A stretch of 59,983 nucleotides of DNA, taken from the NCBI GenBank assembly GCA_902761665.1, contig CACWLA010000010.1:1-59983 (forward strand), in the 5' to 3' direction. Position 1 is the stretch's first letter; the number at the start of each line of letters is the position of its first letter. The notes beneath the pieces are model-generated. The model was not told where the DNA came from and did no database searches. It saw only the letters and a list, made by a program, of their open reading frames with translations. A program made the translations under genes and the position numbers. Source of the stretch: an uncultured Lachnospiraceae bacterium (GTDB taxonomy: Bacteria > Bacillota > Clostridia > Lachnospirales > Lachnospiraceae). Below, piece by piece: positions 55,024-59,983 of this stretch.

Positions 55024-55054
55024 AAGGCCATAATATGGAGACTGGAGAAACGTG

Positions 55055-55315
55055 ATGGCAAAAATAATACCGATCAAGGATCTGAAAAACACGGCGCAGA
55101 TATCCGAACTCTGTCATGTGGCGGAGGAACCGGTATACGTTACGAAAAACGGTTACGGAGACATGGTCATCATGAGCATGGATCTGTATGAAAAAATGCT
55201 TTATCAGCAGGAACTCATATATGAGATCGGGATATCCGAAGGTCAGATCCGGGAAGGAAAGACAAAAGATGCCTTCGCAGCGCTGGAAGAAATGAGAAGA
55301 AAACATGGCGTATGA
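55055..55315 (+). CDS. Phd/YefM-type antitoxin
   Basis: 86 residues. IIPIKDLKNTAQISELCHVA and VYVTKNGYGDMVIMSMDLYE are the N-terminal DNA-binding Phd/YefM fold; the C-terminal half (GISEGQIREGKTKDAFAALE) is the acidic toxin-neutralising helix. ATG at 55055 after TGGAGAAA. It overlaps the toxin gene by 11 bases. Confidence 0.9.
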   Translation: MAKIIPIKDLKNTAQISELCHVAEEPVYVTKNGYGDMVIMSMDLYEKMLYQQELIYEIGISEGQIREGKTKDAFAALEEMRRKHGV

Positions 55316-55616
55316 GATGCTGATCTCGGAACGTGCGAATTTTCAGATCGACAGGCTGGCCGCATATTTGCTGACGGTCCTGAATAATCGCCAGGCTTGT
55401 ATTCATTTTTTTGATGAACTACAAAAGACTTATGAAATGCTGAGGACAGATCCCTTTTGCTGCAAACTGTGTTCTGAGAAACTTCTTGCACAGAAAGGTT
55501 ACCGGTCCGCGCAGCTTCCGACCATGCGTTACCGGATCATTTATCGGGTCGAAGAGAACAAAATCTACATCGTCGCAGTTTTTCATACATTGGAGAATTA
55601 CTCACGAAAATTGTGA
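55305..55616 (+). CDS. RelE/ParE-family toxin
   Basis: 103 residues. YEMLISERANFQIDRLAAYL, then GYRSAQLPTMRYRIIYRVEE and IYIVAVFHTLENYSRKL follow the ParE/RelE fold, with conserved Arg and Tyr near the C-terminus. ParE members poison gyrase and RelE members cut mRNA; which applies is not clear. More cysteines than usual (FCCKLCSEK). Confidence 0.87.
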   Translation: MAYEMLISERANFQIDRLAAYLLTVLNNRQACIHFFDELQKTYEMLRTDPFCCKLCSEKLLAQKGYRSAQLPTMRYRIIYRVEENKIYIVAVFHTLENYSRKL

Positions 55617-55626
55617 TACAGAAACA

Positions 55627-55656
55627 AGAGTGCAGCCGCCGGGACTGCACTCTATG
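55627..55656. terminator. Bidirectional hairpin between the toxin and serpin genes
   Basis: AGAGTGCAG / CTGCACTCT perfect nine-base stem; only weak T tracts on either side. Confidence 0.6.
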
Positions 55657-55676: not shown

Positions 55677-57194
55677 TTACGGTTGATTGACGATGCCGGC
55701 GTAGAGCGGGAGATCGTCCACGCTTGTCAGCAGGAAAAGGAAGGGACGGTTGAAGATGAGTGAGACTTCATCCGGGATAGCCGCCTTGGTGTCAGCTCTC
55801 CCGAAGGTGAAGGAAACGGCCCGGACGCCTTCTTCGTTCGCGATCAGGCGGGAGGCCTGCCTGAGTTCGCTAAGATAAGCACCTTCTTCCGAGATCCCCG
55901 AAAAATCGGCTTCATGTTCGGAAAATACTTTGGAGATGCCGAGCCGCCGGAAGCTGTCTTTCAGATCGTTTTCCGCGGTGATATCGAAACGCGGCAGAGT
56001 CAGATGCACTTTGACAGGCTTCCAGGCAAGGCCTTCTCCGATCTCGCCCCAGCCCGTCCGGTATTCCTTGCGAATAAGTGTTCTAACAAAGGTCGAATAG
56101 GTCTCATTCCACAGGAGTTCTTCAGGTGTAAAGCCGCCCGCGCCGCGATTTGGCAGGATCAGCCACATGCTCATGCCGCCGCCCATTTTGACGCGCACTG
56201 CCTGAAAGCTGTCGCCCAGAACATAAGTGGTGCTCTCGATATCCTGGTACATATAGGTGACGTCCCGCTTCCCGTCCGGAGCATTAAACGTGCCGGGGTG
56301 GGAATCAATCTTCTTGAATCCATCCCATTTGACGTCCAGGTTCATGGCGGAAACTACGGCTGCCACGGTATTGGGCGTCATGGAGACGCCGTTCGTATAG
56401 CGACCGTCCAGCAGGCCGTCGGTCGCTTCCGTGATCCAGGTGCGGAGCGCCTTGCTGTATCCCTCGGACCCCATCTCACCGCGGAAGGAAGAAGCAAAGT
56501 ACGTGTCCGCCAGTGTCTTTACCGTGTCTTCGTGATAGGAGATACCATTGCTCAGCCAGAGCGAATTGGCAAGGACGCTTTTTGCTTCATGCGTATAGAG
56601 AGAATTCGCGAGGTAAACGGACGAGGCCTGTTTCCGCAGCGTTTCGATGCTGTCCGCGCCGAGCAGCTGCAGGATCTCCGCCCGGCTCTCACCGCCGGTG
56701 CATTCCGCGAGCATCGCGAGGGCCATATAACTGTTCAGGGGAGAGTAGACGCGGTTTGCGTGGTTTCCTTCCGTTTCCGTGCCGCCCAGGATCTCCGCCA
56801 TGCTGCGGTTAAAGAAGTCCGCAAGCGGGATGCCGCTGCCCTTGGCCTCGCCGGCCTTCTGCAGATCGTCCGCGGACCGGCTTCTTTCCGGGTGTTCGGC
56901 TTCTCCGAGGGCATAGGCCTTCAAGACCAGCCCGCTCCGGATATGGAAGGTCCCGTCCAGGATGACGGCGAGTGCGAGCACGGCCAGTACCGGCACCGCG
57001 ATCCGGAGGAACTTATGTTTCCGGAAAGCGCCGGTGACGGCGCCGAGAAGCCCTCTGATCCTTTTTCCAAGTCTTTTTTTCTCCGCTGCCGGAGCCTTTT
57101 CGCCAAGCGCGTCCCACGCTTTTTCCGGCGCGGCAGCTTCGACGAGCTGCATATCGACGCCGTTCAGGGCGTCTGAAATATCGATTTTATTCAT
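55677..57194 (-). CDS. Membrane-anchored serpin, probable anti-sigma partner of the ECF sigma factor
   Basis: 505 residues. A charged cytosolic head (1-61, MNKIDISDALNGVDMQLVEA) resembles heads of Clostridia ECF anti-sigma factors; one helix at about 62-80 (FLRIAVPVLAVLALAVILD); then an outside serpin domain (about 110-505) with NRVYSPLNSYMALAMLAECT, ANSLWLSNGISYHEDTV, VVSAMNLDVKWDGF and the signature IFNRPFLFLLTSVDDLPLYA. The reactive-centre hinge (about 454-463) reads EEGVRAVSFT instead of the Ala-rich EEGTEAAAAT, so classical inhibition is doubtful. The ATG at 57194 follows GGAGGAGG and overlaps the sigma gene's end by eight bases. An upstream extension is rejected. Confidence 0.88.
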   Translation of the reverse strand: MNKIDISDALNGVDMQLVEAAAPEKAWDALGEKAPAAEKKRLGKRIRGLLGAVTGAFRKHKFLRIAVPVLAVLALAVILDGTFHIRSGLVLKAYALGEAEHPERSRSADDLQKAGEAKGSGIPLADFFNRSMAEILGGTETEGNHANRVYSPLNSYMALAMLAECTGGESRAEILQLLGADSIETLRKQASSVYLANSLYTHEAKSVLANSLWLSNGISYHEDTVKTLADTYFASSFRGEMGSEGYSKALRTWITEATDGLLDGRYTNGVSMTPNTVAAVVSAMNLDVKWDGFKKIDSHPGTFNAPDGKRDVTYMYQDIESTTYVLGDSFQAVRVKMGGGMSMWLILPNRGAGGFTPEELLWNETYSTFVRTLIRKEYRTGWGEIGEGLAWKPVKVHLTLPRFDITAENDLKDSFRRLGISKVFSEHEADFSGISEEGAYLSELRQASRLIANEEGVRAVSFTFGRADTKAAIPDEVSLIFNRPFLFLLTSVDDLPLYAGIVNQP

Positions 57195-57744
57195 GCCACA
57201 GATCCTCCTCCTGAAGGAAATGCCAAAGTTTGTTCCGCGTGCGTTCGAGGCGCATCTTGACGCTGCCTTCGCTCGCGCGCAGTTCGGCCGCGATCTCACG
57301 GATGGGGCAGGCATACCAGTAGCGAAGCAGAAAGACGCGGCGGTCCTTTTCTTTCAGCTGCGCGAGAAAACGGCCCAGCGCTTCCCGGAGGGCAAGCTCA
57401 TCGGCAATCGCGTTTTCAGACCCGTCAGGCAGAACGTCCTCCAGTTCCTCCAGGCTCTGCTCGTACGCCTCCGTAAACTTCCGCTTCGGATCCTTCCGCC
57501 GCTTGTCGATGGCGAGCTGGCGGGAGAGCATGCCGAGATAGGAGCGCAGCGACGCCGGCCTTGCCGGCGGGACCGTTCGCCAGAGTTTCAGAAGCACGTC
57601 GTTCTCCACTTCCTCGACGTCTGCCGGATCCGCCAGGATCTGCCCCGCGATATAACGGCAGTAGGCGCCGTATTTTTCTCTGATGCTGCCGACCGCGTCT
57701 TCGGAGCGCTCAAGGAGTGCCGCGATCAATGCTTTGTCATCCAT
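57187..57744 (-). CDS. ECF-type RNA polymerase sigma factor
   Basis: 185 residues. Region 2 (about 25-90: KYGAYCRYIAGQILADPADV, VENDVLLKLWRTVPP, LRSYLGMLSRQLAIDKRRKD) and region 4 (about 125-180: LKEKDRRVFLLRYWYACPIR, IAAELRASEGSVKMRLERTR). The ATG at 57744 has AGCAGGA upstream; an in-frame GTG at 57801 is possible but has no site. The operon partner is the membrane serpin, the place normally taken by an anti-sigma factor. No ECF-type promoter of its own is evident. Confidence 0.92.
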   Translation of the reverse strand: MDDKALIAALLERSEDAVGSIREKYGAYCRYIAGQILADPADVEEVENDVLLKLWRTVPPARPASLRSYLGMLSRQLAIDKRRKDPKRKFTEAYEQSLEELEDVLPDGSENAIADELALREALGRFLAQLKEKDRRVFLLRYWYACPIREIAAELRASEGSVKMRLERTRNKLWHFLQEEDLWHE

Positions 57745-57837
57745 GATCCTGCTCACTTTCGTGACGGGGCCTGCCGCCCCGCCTGTTCCAAAGGCCTTCA
57801 CTCATAGAAACGAAGGCCGGAGGGGAAAAGTAACACC

Positions 57838-57846
57838 ATTATAGCA
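57838..57846 (-). promoter_or_regulatory. Extended -10 promoter of the sigma-serpin operon
   Basis: Minus strand TGCTATAAT (57838-57846). A weak TTAATA lies 17 bases upstream. Housekeeping type; an ECF autoregulatory promoter was not found. Confidence 0.6.
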
Positions 57847-57898
57847 TCCCAATCACGATATATTAAAAAAAGTTTTTACAAGTCAACTGGAAAAACTC

Positions 57899-59142: not shown

Positions 59143-59262
59143 AGAACAGAAAAACAACACGTTTTGTGGTAGTAAAATAGAGCTTTTAATCCGGAAAAGG
59201 AAACGGCAAATTACATGGGACTGCAAGACAGCGAAAATTCTAAAAAATTTCTAAAAACCCTC

Positions 59263-59291
59263 TTGACACACCGGTTTATCAATGGTAAACT
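59263..59291 (+). promoter_or_regulatory. Promoter of the blaI-M56 operon
   Basis: TTGACA (59263-59268), 17 bases, TAAACT (59286-59291). Two inverted repeats overlap and follow it. Confidence 0.78.
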
Positions 59292-59323
59292 CGGCTTGTC
59301 AGGGGGTTTATCGCAAATAAACC
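59271..59323. promoter_or_regulatory. Two candidate BlaI operators
   Basis: Site 1: GTTTA...TAAAC inside CCGGTTTATCAATGGTAAAC (from 59271), across the spacer and -10 box. Site 2: GGTTTAT-CGCAA-ATAAACC (59305-59323), perfect seven-base arms in the leader. The arm sequence differs from the TACA/TGTA dyads of staphylococcal BlaI but the position is right for autorepression. Confidence 0.65.
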
Positions 59324-59376
59324 GGTCGGATGGCTGCATTCTGATCGATATGTCCCCGGCAATAAGGAGATCTGTC

Positions 59377-59748
59377 ATGAGTGATTACAAACTGGGAGAA
59401 GTGGAAACGCGTTTTGCCGAACTGATCTGGGAAAATGAACCGCTCGGTTCCGGCGAACTGGTGAGGCTCTGCGCCGAAAAGCTCGGCTGGAAGAAATCCA
59501 CGACTTATACGGTGCTCAGAAAACTCTGTGAAAAAGGGTATTTCCGCAACGAAGGCGGCGCCGTGACTTCGCTCATTTCCCGTGAGGGCATGCAGGCGCA
59601 GGAAAGCCGCCGTTTCGTAGAAGATTCCTTCGGCGGGTCTCTCCCGGCCTTTTTTGCGGCCTTTACTTCGGAGAAAAAACTGTCTGACGGAGATGTCGCG
59701 GAGATCCGCCGGATGATCGACGATTACGGAAAGGAGACATCAAAATGA
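59377..59748 (+). CDS. BlaI/MecI-family transcriptional regulator
   Basis: 123 residues: winged helix (LGEVETRFAELIWENEPLGS, WKKSTTYTVLRKLCEKGYF) and C-terminal dimerisation helices (GSLPAFFAAFTSEKKLSDGD). In the family, a membrane M56 peptidase cleaves the repressor on sensing beta-lactams or another wall signal. The ATG at 59377 follows AAGGAGA; a longer in-frame extension crosses the promoter and is rejected. ATGA overlap with the next gene. Confidence 0.93.
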   Translation: MSDYKLGEVETRFAELIWENEPLGSGELVRLCAEKLGWKKSTTYTVLRKLCEKGYFRNEGGAVTSLISREGMQAQESRRFVEDSFGGSLPAFFAAFTSEKKLSDGDVAEIRRMIDDYGKETSK

Positions 59749-59983
59749 TCAGCATGCTGCTGCTCCGTCTCGCCTTTAAAAAGGCGCCGAAAAGCCTTGT
59801 CTGCGCGCTGTGGATCCTCGTCGGGCTGCGTCTTGTGATCCCGACCATGCCTTCGAGCAGCGTCTCCGTGATCCCGGAGGCGGTCTCGGGCGGCGCTGCC
59901 GTAGAAGCGCTGGAAAAGCAGTACGTGGAAGAAACGACGGTGATCCGTGAGGATCAGAACGAAGAACTCTATAAGCAGATCAC
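59745..59983 (+). CDS. BlaR1-like M56 peptidase, partial (cut by window end)
   Basis: 79 residues visible, open at the window edge. MISMLLLRLAFKKAPKSLVC followed by ALWILVGLRLVIPTMPSSS is the typical first membrane helix of an M56 protein, then an acidic outside loop. ATGA-coupled to blaI, so identification rests on context and this N-terminus. No HExxH motif is in view. Confidence 0.75.
   Translation, partial: MISMLLLRLAFKKAPKSLVCALWILVGLRLVIPTMPSSSVSVIPEAVSGGAAVEALEKQYVEETTVIREDQNEELYKQI

Follow-up and report, generated by a model that had tools for sequence, protein, structure and literature searches.

An ECF sigma factor paired with a membrane serpin: a candidate anti-sigma factor that may double as a protease trap in Lachnospiraceae

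How does a bacterium perceive that foreign proteases are at work on its surface, and could a protease inhibitor itself carry the message inside? The question is raised by a pair of genes in the stretch of DNA that we analysed (the window: 59,983 nucleotides from an uncultured Lachnospiraceae bacterium), where an ECF sigma factor gene is followed by the gene of a membrane protein that has a serpin as its outer domain. An initial annotation had taken this protein for an anti-sigma factor with the serpin as its sensor. Two parts of that interpretation, the ECF linkage and a head that behaves as an anti-sigma module, hold up; the third, the serpin hinge as the mark of a sensor, does not. We think it rather probable that the protein is a membrane serpin trap doubling as an anti-sigma factor, such that protease attack would free the sigma factor to remake both sigma factor and serpin. 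If true, this would be another RsiV-like case, in which the inhibitor of a stress enzyme is at the same time the anti-sigma factor reporting on it, and it might show by what means Clostridia of gut and rumen notice proteases from the host, protozoa or competitors.

The sigma protein is short (185 aa) and contains sigma70 regions 2 and 4 only (PF04542 and PF08281, both above cut-off). It scores 71.3 bits with the NCBIfam model TIGR02937, against a cut-off of 42.9, and is an ECF sigma factor. We prefer the ATG at 57744 as its start because a GTG at 57801 would fall on the expected transcription start. The next gene overlaps it by eight bases (57187-57194), as the initial annotation had it, and the two are probably co-transcribed (Table 1). 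The operon seems to hold these two genes only, because a terminator-like hairpin comes after the serpin gene; it has the longest stem among four such hairpins in the region, where shuffled sequences give a mean of 3.0.

Hydropathy, Pfam, AF2 and Foldseek agree with the proposed division of the second protein (505 aa) into head, one membrane helix and complete serpin. A basic, charged head (residues 1-61) precedes a single hydrophobic helix at 62-80, and Pfam Serpin (PF00079) matches residues 141-505 with an E-value of 3.9e-45, covering profile positions 16-370 of 370. The AF2 model, made from a 75-row alignment, has a serpin fold with pLDDT of at least 90 at 280 of 505 residues and below 50 at the reactive loop (462-471); a Foldseek search with this model returns serpins, with native tengpin in second place. 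The protein thus contains a complete serpin fold. Its place directly behind an ECF gene, its N-terminal head and its one helix give it the predicted layout of a single-pass ECF anti-sigma factor.

Table 1. Features of the sigma-serpin operon, with positions in the window
Feature	Position	Strand	Basis
Candidate sigma-A-like extended -10 promoter, TTAATA-17-TATAAT, possible basal promoter	57838..57866	-	consensus scan
Predicted ECF-type promoter GTTACTTT-N12-TTCGTTTC, 62 bp before the sigma ATG	57807..57834	-	conservation among 6 orthologous operons
ECF sigma factor gene, 185 aa	57187..57744	-	Pfam and NCBIfam matches
Gene overlap, 8 bp, ATGAATAA	57187..57194	-	sequence
Gene of the candidate serpin anti-sigma factor (head-membrane helix-serpin), 505 aa	55677..57194	-	sequence, Pfam, AF2
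Probable cytosolic anti-sigma head, residues 1-61	57012..57194	-	related heads behind non-serpin ECF partners; covariation with sigma
Membrane helix, residues 62-80	56955..57011	-	hydropathy; helix 63-82 in the AF2 model
Juxtamembrane linker including KAYALGEAEHP, residues 81-121	56832..56954	-	A-x-A as possible signal-peptidase site
Serpin domain, residues 122-505	55680..56831	-	Pfam PF00079, AF2, Foldseek
Serpin hinge P17-P8, EEGVRAVSFT	55806..55835	-	ortholog identity; small inward residues
Reactive-centre loop P7-P3', putative P1 Lys470	55776..55805	-	low ortholog identity
Terminator-like hairpin 3' of the serpin gene	55627..55653	-	11-pair stem, then T-rich tail

Recurrence of the ECF linkage in relatives had been set beforehand as a test, and the linkage recurs, beginning with the genome itself. 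This 2.13-Mb draft (94% complete) encodes 7 serpins, four of which carry a head and sit directly behind an ECF gene; the other three begin with a signal peptide or lipoprotein start and have no ECF gene. A rough estimate from 7 serpins, 19 sigma genes and about 1,900 genes, half of them on the right strand, leads us to expect about 0.04 such pairs by chance. With four observed, the pairing is not a matter of chance, and that a 2.1-Mb genome keeps four copies suggests that attack by proteases may weigh heavily there.

Serpins occur in all 16 genomes of the genus (87 matches). Among the 74 distinct serpin ORFs examined first, 33 sit directly behind an ECF gene; thirty share bases with it (exactly 4 bp in 24 cases), and in all 33 the membrane helix begins at residue 24 or later. 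Sixteen additional regions yielded one new ECF-linked serpin (L260). At least one ECF-linked serpin is present in 13 of the 16 genomes, and none was seen at the loci examined in G009, G010 and G013. Of 150 genomes from the family's other genera, 61 encode serpins; among the 83 ORFs examined there, 16 are ECF-linked, and 15 of these have their membrane helix late in the chain. The best 80 of 405 loci in named genomes gave 67 ECF-linked serpins among 87 ORFs (66 with a late helix), in a scan that used an alignment of ECF-linked serpins and is hence biased towards them. The titles of these records name Lachnospiraceae, Oscillospiraceae and other Clostridia, and the module is found, for example, in Flavonifractor sp. 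An112, Flavonifractor sp. AGMB03687 and Ruminococcus sp. YE71. The three sets (116 ECF-linked records together) partly overlap; L145, for instance, is the same locus as L063.

Only two of the 116 records have a headless, early-helix serpin behind the ECF gene (L102 from G016, and L213 from an uncultured Oscillospiraceae bacterium), and in both the head-serpin gene comes next. The operon order is then ECF, secreted or lipoprotein serpin, head-membrane-serpin, and one ECF factor seems to control both a releasable serpin and the membrane serpin. Another locus (L135, G098:C51) has five lipoprotein-like serpin genes in tandem and no ECF gene in the 9.8 kb fetched.

Does the head really act on the sigma factor? 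One could argue that it is a mere membrane anchor, that the gene overlap makes the serpin an ECF target and that the anti-sigma factor is some other protein. Pfam does not recognise the head: its anti-sigma families match none of 75 members, and its zinc-finger anti-sigma (ZAS) domain none of them at E up to 0.05. The NCBIfam anti-sigma model matches 8 of the 75, all below its cut-off. However, related heads stand behind ECF genes with unrelated outer domains. When a profile of 22 heads was searched against the window's own genome, 12 matches at E up to 10 came back. Three are ECF-linked serpins; two of these had gone into building the profile, and the remaining one is weak (E 0.08). Another four contain no serpin and are encoded immediately behind an ECF gene of their own (E 1e-9, 2e-6, 9e-5 and 0.008, the last covering only the part around the membrane helix), and five are weak partial matches from profile position 19 onward (E 0.01-0.5). 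The head of the window protein, which is longer, is not among the 12, so its own anti-sigma role rests on position, layout and covariation. In this genome 19 of the 20 matches to sigma region 2 yielded a sigma ORF, and a serpin follows four of the 19.

The covariation concerns 88 of the 116 records, kept after leaving out L080, L102, L141, L213 and near-duplicates. In these non-redundant pairs the distances between heads follow those between sigma factors (Spearman rho 0.58) far more closely than those between the serpins on the very same chain (0.23). Partial correlations are 0.56 for head and sigma, 0.17 for head and serpin and 0.03 for sigma and serpin; none of 500 permutations reaches the partial value of 0.56, to which co-inheritance could add, sigma and head being physically adjacent. 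Thus sigma factor and head belong together as one unit, and serpins are mounted on it. As had been proposed, the head is probably an anti-sigma module. A mere anchor would leave this covariation and the related heads unaccounted for, and no other gene lies between the sigma gene and the hairpin past the serpin gene to supply the missing anti-sigma factor; we find that explanation very improbable.

The mounting has changed often. In a quick FastTree tree of 205 serpin domains, rooted at the midpoint and made without L080, L102, L141, ORFs below 380 aa and near-duplicates, ECF linkage requires at least 31 changes, 17 of them forced by well-supported branches. This count is too high by an unspecified number, because loci cut at contig ends and genes in second place within an ECF operon (L187, L212, L213 and L216 among them) count as rows labelled non-ECF. 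ECF linkage occurs on both sides of the midpoint root: the clade of the window has it in 80 of 110 serpins, the other clade in 7 of 95. Repeated changes on the tree imply that heads were gained, lost or swapped many times.

What, then, does the serpin do outside the cell? The initial annotation held that the hinge EEGVRAVSFT lacks the small residues needed for trapping and so fits a sensor better than an inhibitor. In serpins, positions P14, P12, P10 and P8 face inward when the loop inserts and the odd-numbered ones face outward. The four inward residues here are V, A, S and T, so nothing that counts is missing from the hinge; its bulk sits at P13 (R), P11 (V) and P9 (F). In each of the 87 ECF-linked serpins scored, P14 is small or aliphatic, and P12 and P10 are small. 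The same small inward positions, with the same aromatic P9, are found in 26 of 28 non-ECF serpins of the window's clade; in the other clade the count is 64 of 71. The search pattern behind these counts demanded Gly at P15 and preferred small residues, so P15 itself is no test, and the scoring dropped 19 of the 205 tree rows, all labelled non-ECF, in which the pattern found no hinge. A hinge of the form V/C-x-A-A-A-Y/F-T is a trait of the window's whole serpin clade, ECF-linked or not, and seven ECF-linked serpins in the other clade have a classical GT hinge. By its residues the window's hinge appears competent for insertion, and inhibition is predicted.

These counts bear on the idea that the serpin is purely a sensor, bound or cut by a protease that it never traps, and that its change of shape alone would free the sigma factor. 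Non-inhibitory serpins that exploit the shape change do exist, the layout and its recurrence are in keeping with such a role, and the R/V/S/F hinge of the window's lineage is unusual, with V at P11, S at P10 and F at P9 where a fast trap is concerned. Against this, the hinge type is a clade trait common to non-ECF serpins, the small inward positions are kept in every ECF-linked serpin scored, and the seven GT hinges are those of textbook inhibitors. A pure sensor therefore strikes us as unlikely, if deserving of some weight, and we keep to a serpin that would trap.

The loop itself behaves like bait. Among six orthologs, mean identity is 95% in the hinge, 73% in the serpin body and 45% in loop positions P7-P3', and only 5 of 370 ten-residue windows diverge as much as this loop. 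A conserved hinge beside a fast-evolving bait is what one expects of a loop that faces changing proteases, and the divergence seen here between conserved flanks is consistent with a protease bait. The counted P1 (K470) is Lys in four of the six orthologs and Met and Gln in the others, with the scissile bond uncertain by about one residue; a Lys at this position would fit a trypsin-like protease.

How would the cut outside reach the head inside? The linker between membrane and serpin varies widely in length among members, which argues against a rigid mechanical link. Many members have an A-x-A motif after the helix. We also considered whether this possible signal-peptidase site is specific to ECF-serpins, which the counts do not support, since it is only slightly commoner in them: among bearers of the YP motif (47 of 80 ECF-linked serpins and 16 of 30 other serpins of the clade), it lies within 4 residues of that motif in 33 of 47 ECF-linked and 9 of 16 other serpins. 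Because A-x-A is non-specific and the linker length variable, release is more likely gated by access to the cutting site than by a rigid lever.

The promoter suggests what the sigma factor may control. In six orthologous operons upstream conservation sets in abruptly 62 to 76 bp before the ATG with GTTAC[TC]TT-N12-TTCGTTTC, which contains ECF-like -35 and -10 elements. In the window's genome, allowing up to 2 mismatches, the motif occurs once, as does a reversed control; when the pattern is relaxed to allow a spacer of 16 to 18, one additional site appears, on C29. Across the 16 genus genomes, with at most 1 mismatch, there are seven copies, one each in seven genomes, and no match of the reversed control. 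Each of the seven stands ahead of an ECF-serpin operon, namely the six orthologs and L050. The motif of a second paralogue group is different; at up to 2 mismatches it turns up in 5 of 16 genomes, as a single copy in each and with no match of the control, and four of the five copies are placed 24-26 bp upstream of an ECF-serpin operon. Separate predicted promoter codes are used by at least two paralogue groups. Since the conserved promoter was found only before ECF-serpin operons, the detectable regulon is the operon itself, in a scan that would miss weaker or degenerate targets. A sigma-A-like promoter further upstream came from a consensus scan that found one site, against a mean of 1.1 in shuffles, and is a weak signal alone.

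Some other serpin genes lie in or near these operons. The fifth copy of the second-group motif (L052, G008:C27:9713-13709) precedes a headless membrane serpin, followed by an ECF gene and a head-serpin. In L260, L261 and L262 (from G006, G007 and G004) the ECF-serpin pairs have classical GT hinges, and two lipoprotein serpins in tandem, with a conserved upstream element of their own, are found 2-3 kb away. We considered these lipoprotein serpins as members of the regulon and rejected them, given the intervening genes and the lack of a clear match between that element and the ECF promoter.

Could the serpin be mainly a surface inhibitor under ECF control, joined to an ordinary anti-sigma head that answers another cue, be it envelope stress, the state of the membrane or cutting of the linker by any protease? 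The very variable linker, the swapping of serpins relative to sigma factor and head, and the additional serpins in or beside some operons all speak for it. Such an arrangement would not explain why serpin and head are joined on both sides of the tree, instead of a simple anchor and a separate serpin, nor why the only detected targets are serpin operons. We give it a slim chance.

We therefore return to the serpin as trap and anti-sigma factor in one. The starting points of this model, read from sequence, are the gene pair, the head-membrane-serpin layout, the related heads, the covariation, the promoter, the small hinge residues and the fast-evolving loop. At rest, the cytosolic head would bind the sigma factor and hold it at the membrane, and outside the serpin would present its loop as bait. 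The signal would be a protease: it would cut the loop, the serpin would insert it, and the serpin would then be spent or the protease trapped. Either outcome would turn the anti-sigma factor into a substrate of regulated proteolysis, a cascade in which, by analogy with RsiV, a site-1 cut near the membrane would be followed by the site-2 protease RseP. An RseP is encoded in the genome, which says little because site-2 proteases were found in 14 of 14 control genomes. Induction would follow, as the freed sigma factor would transcribe its own operon and so make more sigma factor and more membrane serpin.

Each serpin molecule is consumed by one encounter. Because the serpin is single-use and the only detected product of the sigma factor is more sigma factor and serpin, such a circuit would replace the inhibitor as fast as it is consumed. 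In its strongest form, this would be a self-replenishing suicide-inhibitor circuit. The surface serpin would be bait, trap, sensor and anti-sigma factor at once! The sigma factor would have essentially one promoter, its own, and each spent serpin would free one sigma factor, so that cells would count protease hits stoichiometrically. Several parallel copies in a genome would make up a panel of insulated, protease-specific channels that differ in their sigma-promoter pair and in their loop. We put this stronger form forward tentatively, with somewhat more doubt than belief. The module is compact and recurrent, occurs in named records and has a candidate promoter, and is thus directly testable in laboratory hosts.

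The closest parallel is RsiV, the membrane anti-sigma factor of the ECF factor sigma-V in Bacillus subtilis and Clostridioides difficile, whose outer domain binds and inhibits a stress enzyme. RsiV is described as lysozyme receptor, lysozyme inhibitor and anti-sigma factor in one (PMC5014341). Binding of lysozyme lets signal peptidase cut RsiV, with RasP acting next (PMC5014341; PMC6066255), and activation of sigma-V in C. difficile is reported to raise the operon of sigma-V and RsiV strongly (PMC6066255). By analogy, ECF-serpins may be viewed as anti-sigma factors that use an inhibitor as receptor, with a serpin in place of RsiV's lysozyme inhibitor. The outer domains differ: that of RsiV is DUF4163/DUF3298 and faces lysozyme, whereas the one here is a serpin, by its fold a single-use protease trap. 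Pfam finds neither DUF4163 nor DUF3298 in the window protein or the 75 members, which places them outside the RsiV family, and no match to RsiV's DUF4179 region in the 75 ECF-serpins.

To our knowledge no other serpin acts as a transcriptional receptor, and this one would be the first; nor do we know of a siropin, a tengpin or a miropin joined to an anti-sigma head. Protease-inducible control of a serpin is known from Bifidobacterium breve, for which the primary paper is said to be Alvarez-Martin 2012. Serpin expression there is described as protease-induced and reportedly autoregulated through a two-component system (PMC8012564). Unlike the arrangement proposed here, control is exerted by a separate system, and the serpin is not itself the regulator. 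Siropins (PMC5127057), tengpin and miropin resemble the window's serpin in fold, loop and hinge, tengpin and miropin by sequence and tengpin also by fold. The available text of the siropin paper does not contain the term "sigma factor" (PMC5127057), and a paper on serpin phylogeny mentions, in the parts accessible, membrane-anchored prokaryotic serpins and not sigma (PMC8233489). The open-licence literature searched yielded no description of a serpin joined to an anti-sigma factor or an ECF sigma factor.

Membrane anti-sigma families with varied outer sensor domains have a precedent in RsgI and sigma-I of cellulolytic clostridia (PMC3413522, PMC12484212). RsgI differs in its partner, SigI, and in outer modules that bind polysaccharides, and the accessible parts of these papers name no serpin version (PMC3413522, PMC12484212). 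The N-terminal domain of RsgI found no match in our Pfam scans and the sigma protein matches ECF models, so the pair falls outside SigI/RsgI.

On the opposite strand, just past the end of the serpin gene, the window encodes a Phd/YefM antitoxin and ParE-type toxin pair (55052-55616, +). Further along (59215-59981, +) lies a regulator of the penicillinase-repressor (BlaI/MecI) type, and the next frame, truncated where the contig stops, is perhaps the membrane sensor of this regulator. Elsewhere in the genome four further ECF genes (L227, L228, L229 and L230, on C30, C3, C16 and C32) each precede the gene of a head-membrane protein without any Pfam match at E up to 0.01; these proteins are perhaps uncharacterised sensors of the same anti-sigma kind.
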